A stretch of DNA of 64,000 nucleotides from Segetibacter aerophilus (GTDB lineage Bacteria > Bacteroidota > Bacteroidia > Chitinophagales > Chitinophagaceae): assembly GCF_007991655.1 (NCBI RefSeq), contig NZ_BJYT01000014.1:62001-126000 (forward strand), in the 5' to 3' direction. Both the position numbers and the translations under genes were made by a program. Of the stretch, positions 46,931-48,045 are shown one piece after another (position 1 is the stretch's first letter; every line of letters starts with the position of its first letter). The notes under the pieces were generated by a model. The model was given only the letters and a program-made list of their open reading frames with translations. It was not told the origin of the DNA and made no database searches.

Positions 46931-46972
46931 TAAAAATGCCCCAACCCAATGCACAAATGAGAAGGGTTGAGG
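46931..46972 (-). terminator. Rho-independent terminator of the tRNA-like RNA unit
   Basis: On the minus strand CCTCAACCC (46972-46964) pairs with GGGTTGGGG (46947-46939), one T-G pair, followed by CATTTTTA. It starts 11 bases after the acceptor stem of the first tRNA-like RNA. Confidence 0.75.
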
Positions 46973-46982
46973 CTAAGAGAGC

Positions 46983-47144
46983 TGTGGAAGAAGGGCTCGA
47001 ACCTTCACGAGGTAGTTAGCCAAAGTGCAATGTTGTGGTGGTCAACCCCAGTCTTTCTTGCGAAAGGCATTACGCTTCGTTTATCCCATGATCCTCACCC
47101 CCGAGACAAGAGGGCATGTCTGCCAAAAATTTCATCACTCCACA
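46983..47144 (-). ncRNA. tRNA-like structured RNA with a giant variable region, copy 1
   Basis: Read on the minus strand, the 162 bases fold as a tRNA: acceptor TGTGGAG/TTCCACA, D arm ATG/CAT with the GG of the D loop, anticodon arm CCCTC-TTGTCTC-GGGGG, and T arm GAAGG-TTCGAGC-CCTTC with a canonical T loop. Between anticodon and T arms lie about 91 bases instead of the usual 4-24; GAGG/CCTC could close this arm, and CTTTC-GCAA-GAAAG is a GNRA hairpin inside it. No CCA is encoded. The anticodon would be GTC with T at position 37, which is unusual, so decoding is doubtful. Compared with copy 2 the acceptor and T stems differ by compensatory changes. Confidence 0.7.
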
Positions 47145-47250
47145 GTATTGATAAGAACTCTTTTTTTTAAAGGTACAGAACTAAGACACACCAGCATCTG
47201 TAATTTCGTTCCTGGTATTAGGTCTTCAAAGGTATTACCATTTTACTAGC

Positions 47251-47420
47251 TGTAGGGGGAGGGGTCGAACCTCCACGAGGCAGTTAGCTTAACGCAAAGT
47301 TTAGTGGTCAACCCTGGTCGGCCGAACGCAAGGAACAGTCGGCTCTACGCTTAAGTTTATCCCGTGATCCTCACCCCCGAGACAAGAGGGCATGTCTGCC
47401 AAAAATTTCATCACCCCACA
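47251..47420 (-). ncRNA. tRNA-like structured RNA with a giant variable region, copy 2
   Basis: A 170-base relative of copy 1 in the same orientation. Acceptor TGTGGGG/CCCTACA, D arm ATG/CAT, anticodon arm CCCTC-TTGTCTC-GGGGG and T arm GGAGG-TTCGACC-CCTCC are all present. The first 65 bases are almost identical to copy 1 (two differences), the middle is divergent but keeps blocks GGGATAAAC, GGGTTGACCAC and GCTAACT. The region between anticodon and T arms is 99 bases; inside, GCCGA/TCGGC and CTTAA/TTAAG can pair, the latter matching CGAAG/CTTTG of copy 1. No CCA is encoded. I do not recognise a described family with this layout. Confidence 0.7.
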
Positions 47421-47574: not shown

Positions 47575-48045
47575 ATGGCAGGGAAATTAAATCTTGACAA
47601 ACTGGATCATGAGATCATTTACGAAATGATGGAAACGGCAGAAATTTCTTACGCCGACCTTGGAAAAAAATTATTTGTGTCAGGCGGAACTATTCATGTC
47701 AGGATTAAAAAGCTCCAGGAAATGGGCATCGTTAAAGGCACCCGCTTAAATGTCGACCTAAAAGCGCTCGGATACGATGTAATTGCTTTTATCGGCATTT
47801 ACCTTGAAAAAAGTTCGTTGTATGACGATGTTGTAAAAGAACTTAAAAATATTCCTGAAATTGTACGATTAAATTATACAACTGGCAACTACAGCATGTT
47901 TGCTGAAATTATTTGCAAGGATATCACGCAGCTAAGATCGGTGTTGCATGATGAACTACAAAAAATTAAAGGAATTGAAAGAACAGAAACGTTTATCTCC
48001 CTTGAAGAAAGCTTCAGCCGCAACGTTGTTGTTACTAATAATTAA
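47575..48045 (+). CDS. Lrp/AsnC family transcriptional regulator
   Basis: A 156-residue regulator with an N-terminal winged helix-turn-helix (about 5-60; LDKLDHEIIYEMMETAEISY and LFVSGGTIHVRIKKLQEMG) and a C-terminal RAM ligand-binding domain (about 68-145; GYDVIAFIGIYLEKSS, YTTGNYSMFAEIIC). The ATG at 47575 is chosen; the frame is open upstream to 47392 but that part overlaps the tRNA-like RNA on the other strand. Lrp-type proteins sense amino acids. Its target cannot be told, but it is divergent from the RNA unit. Confidence 0.88.
   Translation: MAGKLNLDKLDHEIIYEMMETAEISYADLGKKLFVSGGTIHVRIKKLQEMGIVKGTRLNVDLKALGYDVIAFIGIYLEKSSLYDDVVKELKNIPEIVRLNYTTGNYSMFAEIICKDITQLRSVLHDELQKIKGIERTETFISLEESFSRNVVVTNN

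Follow-up and report, generated by a model that had tools for sequence, protein, structure and literature searches.

Two tandem genes in a 64,000-nucleotide stretch of Segetibacter aerophilus DNA (the whole stretch that was analyzed, referred to below as the window) represent a family of structured RNAs that is conserved across much of Bacteroidota and apparently undescribed. We think it probable that this RNA serves as a dedicated tRNA without a decoding role, used by AspRS and GatCAB to make asparagine and controlled by an AsnC-type regulator.

Two related minus-strand RNAs had been predicted from the window sequence, and both were recovered: copy A, the upstream copy, at positions 47250 to 47420 (171 nt with G73) and copy B, the downstream copy, at positions 46982 to 47144 (163 nt with G73), separated by 105 nt. 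DNA and covariance-model searches of the host's own genome found copies A and B only. Both contain the acceptor, D, anticodon, and T arms of a tRNA as described in the original prediction, and both have the anticodon loop TTGTCTC (positions 47379 to 47385 in copy A, giving G34 U35 C36, U37, and C38; positions 47103 to 47109 in copy B; minus strand). The variable region holds a separate domain, located at 47277 to 47372 in copy A and at 47009 to 47096 in copy B (minus strand) and delineated by covariation, apart from stem P2, which was read by eye. In copy A the domain runs from the V stem (GAGG/CCTC) through a 4-nt bulge, a 3-bp stem, and a conserved internal loop (GATAAA/CTAA) to the long stem P1, beyond which lies a junction bearing P2 and the hairpin P3 (GGGTTGACCAC); P2 of copy B is capped by GCAA. 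A boxA-like GTTCTT precedes copy B (positions 47153 to 47158, minus strand). Among 168 members taken from the matches listed, 37 have GYTCTT within 45 nt upstream, compared to a shuffled mean of 3.3 and maximum of 10; on our assumption that the motif plays the role of boxA, this suggests that the RNA may be transcribed as a stable RNA. An intrinsic terminator had been predicted after the downstream copy. A terminator-like hairpin 3′ of copy B is visible by eye (GCCTCAACCC/GGGTTGGGGC, with a 10-bp stem, a 16-nt loop, and ATTTTTA after it; positions 46931 to 46973, minus strand), but a scan of the locus restricted to loops of 3 to 8 nt reported none.

Comparison with catalogued RNAs agreed with the prediction that no described family would be recognized. 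Rfam at gathering score returned no family from the whole window. A permissive search (E of up to 5) of the 1.5-kb stretch around the genes gave two matches and none to the tRNA model; one of the two covers 13 nt at the start of copy A with 12.8 bits (E of 4.5; gathering score of 60) and is taken as chance. In 19 related loci (E of up to 1), nothing in Rfam overlapped the RNAs and no tRNA was matched; a near-threshold match to Flavo-1 was seen in this search (L050:433-500, plus strand; 40.7 bits with a gathering score of 42). ARAGORN, run as the tRNA-finder check that had been proposed, called no tRNA in the window or in 19 loci and none at the RNA in 60 further loci, that is, no family RNA in the window or 79 loci. 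A match to a known tRNA, tmRNA, or intron family, named in the prediction as grounds for rejecting it, was thus sought with both programs and not found, and a tmRNA or a tRNA-Leu group I intron was rejected on the same results. A phage or plasmid element was also set aside, with no plasmid match and a single 24-base phage match. YrlA bacterial Y RNAs are tRNA mimics bound by Ro/Rsr and share with this family a tRNA-like fold in a non-decoding RNA; here, however, the RNA ends form an acceptor stem, and a TROVE (Ro) match was present in just 2 of 59 relatives and absent from the other 57. A literature search covering few subscription journals yielded no paper that we recognized as describing this RNA. 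The catalogue would gain a structured family missed by ARAGORN and Rfam 15. The idea of a tRNA mimic, regulator, or expanded tRNA outside the described families is supported, and there are homologues that show additional covariation.

The claim that the stems are kept by compensatory change was upheld when 42 sequences were aligned. Pairing held in 97.0% of the cells of the structure assigned, with changes on both sides in 17 of 43 pairs; 0 of 500 shuffles reached any of five pairing measures, and sliding the structure out of register lowered pairing to 43 to 60%. The alignment supports the acceptor, D, anticodon, V, and T stems and the V-arm domain, comprising a 4-bp stem, a bulge, a 3-bp stem, the internal loop GATAAA/CTAA, an 8+3-bp P1, and hairpin P3. 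The V arm has its own covarying closing stem (GAGG/CCTC, GGGG/CCCC, or GGAG/CTCC), which was missing from the stems originally listed, and the three variable-region blocks named there (GGGATAAAC, GGGTTGACCAC, and GCTAACT) all recur among relatives. At fixed offsets in the 168 members from the matches listed, pairing was 99.8% in the acceptor stem, 97.4% in the anticodon stem, 93.9% in the V stem, and 98.0% in the T stem. Other cloverleaf features are present as well (G18 G19, T54 T55 C56, and a 7-bp acceptor). The body of the RNA resembles tRNA-Leu, and its variable region carries a structured arm of ~40 to 130 nt. The same 168 members are 107 to 209 nt long without G73; in half of them the variable region was measured, at 39 to 131 nt, the internal loop with CTAA-type letters being kept in most and P3 being confined to the longer ones. 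Single-sequence folding gave the cloverleaf no advantage (z-scores of 0.28 and −0.55 for the two copies). Model-compatible folds averaged 4.7 kcal/mol above the unconstrained optimum, under a constraint that only excluded conflicting pairs, and the 3-bp D stem was unformed in both constrained structures displayed. By energy folding alone, the family would have been missed.

A DNA search gave matches, some of them short, in 38 of 59 related genomes. A covariance-model search of Bacteroidota, proposed as a check in the original prediction, found homologues: of 296 genomes, 117 had any match and 31 were counted as family bearing, a member being defined by a score of at least 79 bits and a length of >100 nt. 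The difference reflects matches to the R1 model of ~70 to 90 nt and <58 bits, which were left out of the count. Twelve of these, 81 to 84 nt long, were read individually, and ARAGORN called tRNA-Leu in 12/12; the others are taken as tRNA-Leu. Because the model used to call presence was built from a single family, it may have overlooked distant members. The 31 RNA-positive genomes come from several families of the class and one further family (f66). A loop-pattern scan of genome contigs retrieved at least 120 stretches, and a full-length model match was taken from 118 of 120 among the matches listed. Lineages among the matches listed include Chitinophaga, Niabella, Pedobacter, Dyadobacter, Spirosoma, Algoriphagus, Cyclobacterium, Fulvivirga, Saprospiraceae, and other Bacteroidota. 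Two of the 120 are Ignavibacteria(les), which fall within Bacteroidota in GTDB, and the remainder belong to named Bacteroidota lineages.

Conserved letters were tallied in 80 distinct members recovered by DNA or model search only, although the model itself knows the loop; members fetched by pattern were kept out, some of their loop letters being set by the search itself. U1-A72, G2-C71, G73, U35, C36, and C38 each occurred in 80/80 members and G34 in 79/80. Position 37 was U in 76, C in 3, and G in 1, hence a pyrimidine in 79/80, and U33 was kept in just 59/80. The GTC anticodon and pyrimidine 37 had been judged unsuited to decoding, and the tally bore this out: with U33 missing from many members and a pyrimidine at position 37 in almost all, decoding at the ribosome appears unlikely. 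According to the accessible part of one source, G73, G34, U35, C36, and C38 are strong Asp determinants, G2-C71 is a minor one, and G10 is tabulated; U1-A72 confers amidation of Asp-tRNA-Asn, G1-C72 and U20a prevent amidation in tRNA-Asp, and the bacterial Asn identity set includes U36 and A37 (PMC9976931). The RNA carries the main letters of an AspRS substrate (G73, G34, U35, C36, C38, and G2-C71) and, in 80/80 members, those of a GatCAB substrate (U1-A72 and no G1-C72); the Asn-set letters U36 and A37 are absent. Two Asp features are not found in the RNA, which counts against our proposal. One is G10, an Asp identity feature in the portion of PMC6523644 that was available, where the RNA has A, T, or, in a minority, G. 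The other is G1-C72, which the accessible part of PMC9976931 gives as strictly conserved in bacterial tRNA-Asp and as helping to position the 3′ end in E. coli AspRS; the RNA has U1-A72 in 80/80. Compared to tRNA-Asp, then, the RNA shares G34 U35 C36, C38, G73, and G2-C71 and differs in having U1-A72 rather than G1-C72, a pyrimidine at 37, a Leu-type D arm, and a long V arm. In Dyadobacter sp. CY343 (L107), the ordinary tRNA-Asp begins with G and has the loop CTGTCAC; the RNA has U1-A72 and the loop CTGTCTC. From the 80-member tally and the published sets, as far as these were available, it follows that the main AspRS and GatCAB letters were kept and the needs of decoding dropped. The GTC triplet, whose significance was missed in the original prediction, is likely part of an aspartate identity set that stands together with a U1-A72 mark for GatCAB.

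Lack of GlnRS is the usual reason for needing GatCAB, and genomes with both AsnRS and GlnRS should need no GatCAB for translation. Among 80 chosen genomes, AsnRS was over the cutoff in 79 (the 80th has a fragment) and GlnRS in 63. In 63 genomes with both synthetases, gatB, from which alone GatCAB presence was judged, was found in 32/32 RNA-positive and 4/31 RNA-negative genomes, the other 27 lacking both (Fisher P of 6e-14, the genomes not being independent). Of 73 genomes of the same class or nearer, 29 had RNA and gatB, 0 had RNA without gatB, 4 had gatB without RNA, and 40 had neither (Fisher P of 2e-16 for genomes related to each other); G195 and G236, from the 296, were left out of this count, having no kinship listing. 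Within family f1 (36 genomes), there was a gatB match in 30/30 RNA-positive and 0/6 RNA-negative genomes, one of the RNA-positive genomes (72% complete) having only a gatB fragment under the cutoff. gatB was also present in 2/2 f66 genomes and in six further genomes of the order (the sets overlap), and when a less strict model was applied to 37 genomes, six more RNA-positive genomes were gained, all with gatB. On an AsnRS tree of 63 genomes, the RNA requires 7 changes, giving 4 to 6 supported independent contrasts; gatB follows the RNA in 3 to 5 of these and opposes it in none. The sign test (P of 0.06 to 0.25) is not significant because the contrasts are too few, and this, with the relatedness of the genomes, weakens the case for the mechanism. 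Also against it are G046, G056, G209, and G257, which have gatB, AsnRS, and GlnRS and in which no RNA was found. In G209 and G257, gatB scores far lower than most (E of ~1e-105), in a family mostly without gatB in the draw, and was perhaps acquired separately. GlnRS over the cutoff was missing from 10 of 14 genomes with gatB and no RNA, 3 of those 10 being at most 80% complete. Some genomes at the level of the order, e.g., G043 and G047, have an AsnRS of another make, with the model match in two pieces and frames of ~508 to 551 amino acids.

E. coli-type AsnB, called from the matched range on the profile, was present in 0/31 RNA-positive and 34/49 RNA-negative genomes. The NF006949 cutoff (499 bits) was exceeded by 5/5 E. 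coli-type AsnB proteins checked (908 to 954 bits) and reached by 0/19 AsnB-like proteins from 17 RNA-positive genomes; in G108 and G257, it was likewise not reached (best score, 315 bits). AsnA was found in 3/31 RNA-positive and 5/49 RNA-negative genomes. A protein over the TIGR01536 asparagine synthase cutoff occurs in 27/31 RNA-positive genomes, so that other AsnB-like enzymes may still make asparagine there; this and the three genomes with AsnA argue against the proposed mechanism. Four genomes (G031, G205, G245, and G304) have RNA and gatB and no AsnA or AsnB over the cutoff, and in three of them the best synthetase candidates score highest with a lasso-cyclase model, under its cutoff. A further point against the mechanism is that E. 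coli-type AsnB and AsnA are both missing from 12/49 RNA-negative genomes, of which nine (seven from f1, plus G100 and G108) also lack gatB, which means that synthetase loss is not always replaced. Contrasts of RNA against synthetase on the AsnRS tree mostly showed no difference.

Divergent from the RNA genes lies a gene for an AsnC-type transcriptional regulator of 156 amino acids (positions 47575 to 48045, plus strand; Pfam AsnC_trans_reg). Its nearest PDB sequence is E. coli AsnC (2cg4; E of 1.6e-31), and its best NCBIfam model is AsnC (NF008384) at 159 bits, under the cutoff of 227; the Lrp model gave 54 bits. We therefore describe it as AsnC-like, short of the AsnC model cutoff; Lrp, with leucine as signal, was rejected on the same comparisons. 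An AsnC homologue diverges from the RNA in most of the early loci examined and, among the matches listed, at 77 of the 107 loci where 700 nt or more of flank was available (11 further loci with too little were left out). The regulator is absent beside the RNA at the other 30 of these 107 loci, many of them in Cyclobacteriaceae and Saprospiraceae, and this too counts against the mechanism. Close AsnC homologues (E of <1e-45) were found in all 31 RNA-positive genomes and in RNA-negative G060, G127, and G177. In E. coli, asnA sits beside asnC, in the place occupied here by the RNA. No synthetase swap was seen at the asnC locus: G060 and G177, where the RNA is lost and AsnC kept, have no asparagine synthetase beside asnC. 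Nor did the 118 loci among the matches listed have a second constant neighbor able to release asparagine (AsnC, 77 loci; next family, 19), so that the lack of a releasing enzyme among the neighbors also weighs against the proposal.

In the mechanism that we favor, AspRS would read the aspartate identity letters of the RNA and load it with aspartate, and GatCAB would recognize U1-A72 and amidate the RNA-bound aspartate to asparagine. The asparagine would then be released by hydrolysis or by some enzyme, and AsnRS would load the free amino acid onto ordinary tRNA-Asn. The RNA would have to be kept out of translation, because Asn-RNA with an Asp anticodon would put asparagine at aspartate codons, and such exclusion would account for the loss of U33, for a pyrimidine at position 37, and perhaps for the large structured arm; the arm may double as a scaffold. 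The AsnC-type regulator would control the RNA gene. This one mechanism would explain the loop, U1-A72, the gatB link, the AsnC neighbor, and the lack of E. coli-type AsnB. If it is true, an RNA is set aside in these bacteria for the synthesis of an amino acid, and a tRNA has become a metabolic cofactor in whose conserved letters the identity codes of two enzymes can be read. For the broader proposition the chances seem to us evenly balanced: that free asparagine is made across much of Bacteroidota with the help of a dedicated RNA cofactor, namely, a former tRNA that has dropped out of the genetic code while retaining its AspRS and GatCAB letters and has grown a structured domain keeping it off the ribosome or assembling the enzymes. 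We know of no earlier RNA that serves only to hold an amino acid while that amino acid is being made. Staphylococci have a non-proteinogenic tRNA-Gly that serves cell wall peptide synthesis; it is likewise a tRNA kept for a task outside translation, but the task and the tRNA differ and it has no V-arm domain.

The same identity letters and gatB link, together with the frequent AsnC neighbor, would also be expected if the RNA were aspartylated and amidated as a sensor or regulator of the Asp/Asn supply (e.g., to AsnC or GatCAB) rather than as a bulk source of asparagine. The conserved internal loop and P3 hairpin could then be protein sites, and the AsnB-like proteins kept in 27/31 RNA-positive genomes fit this reading. 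We consider it unlikely, since a mere sensor leaves unexplained the four RNA-positive genomes without a synthetase over the cutoff and the complete absence of E. coli-type AsnB (0/31).

GatCAB might instead make asparagine on ordinary tRNA-Asn via a non-discriminating AspRS, with the RNA as an AsnC-controlled regulator that travels with the pathway. The consulted part of PMC4206432 describes tRNA-dependent asparagine synthesis on tRNA-Asn by AspRS and GatCAB in Deinococcus, Thermus, and Bdellovibrio, gives the non-discriminating AspRS route as shown for Bdellovibrio and thought possible in some Bacteroidetes genera, and lists Bacteroidetes among the genera with AsnRS, GlnRS, and GatCAB and no asparagine synthetase, all with U1-A72 tRNA-Asn. 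This account, which we rate as quite improbable, fails to explain why AspRS and GatCAB letters are fixed in the RNA itself. In addition, the AspRS anticodon-binding stretch, compared in 12 RNA-positive and 8 RNA-negative genomes (six of the eight without gatB), has motifs that are alike in RNA-positive genomes and gatB-less relatives (RKFG in f1 and SRDLG in f22); because a non-discriminating enzyme would mistranslate in the latter, AspRS is likely discriminating in both groups. The mechanism that we favor resembles tRNA-Asn-based synthesis, as described in the accessible text, in having Asp-charging letters and U1-A72 on one RNA, gatB present, and asparagine synthetase sometimes missing. It differs in its carrier, a separate RNA that resembles tRNA-Leu, has an Asp anticodon, and lacks a decoding loop, and in its product, which would be free asparagine for AsnRS. 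Where bacteria do have asparagine synthetase, the retained GatCAB is called possibly vestigial in the part of PMC4206432 available; with the RNA as its substrate, GatCAB would have grounds for being retained, and the question becomes directly testable.

If the RNA were a mimic of class II tRNAs that SerRS charges or LeuRS binds, acting as a decoy or as a donor for another process, this would account for the tRNA-Leu-like D arm and V-arm base. With tRNA-Leu and class II tRNAs the RNA shares a GAAATTGGCAGAC-type D arm, a T arm, and, following the V stem, two nucleotides that stay unpaired; it departs from them in U1-A72, G73 instead of A73, an Asp anticodon with U37, and a V region of ~40 to 130 nt with its own domain. 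All tRNA-Leu sequences read (12/12) end in A73 and the RNA in G73, which speaks against LeuRS. SerRS is not known to need the anticodon, yet the anticodon loop of the RNA is nearly invariant. In favor of SerRS, G73 and a long arm are used by this enzyme, according to the part of PMC7609411 available. The Ser set, in the accessible part of PMC9976931, lists no anticodon determinant and in bacteria includes C72 and C11-G24, whereas the RNA has A72 and mostly U11-A24. The gatB link would also be left unexplained, and we regard this reading as very doubtful. A decayed tRNA or functionless tRNA-derived repeat, suggested by the tandem copies and changing arm length, is scarcely credible, being contradicted by covariation and near-invariant letters across several orders.

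Several individual sequences departed from the common form. Short tandem copies of 117 to 121 nt adjoin a full-length copy at L017:1757-1877 and L026:1722-1838 and lack the P2/P3 part of the arm, which therefore looks dispensable. The member at L032:1366-1575 has a D-loop insertion and a second insertion in the bulge after the V stem. A 76-nt, 57-bit tRNA-like RNA at L193, in G127, has U1-A72, G73, the loop CTATCTC, and almost no V arm, and ARAGORN calls it tRNA-Asp (atc); it is possibly a diverged family member, in a genome that was counted as RNA-negative and has gatB and AsnA and no GlnRS over the cutoff. At L206, in G029, where neither RNA nor gatB was found, there is an odd 137-nt tRNA-Leu-like sequence with inserts and no ARAGORN call. 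Phaeodactylibacter xiamenensis (L146) carries five copies at one locus, four of 109 nt spaced regularly at ~151 nt and one of 138 nt.
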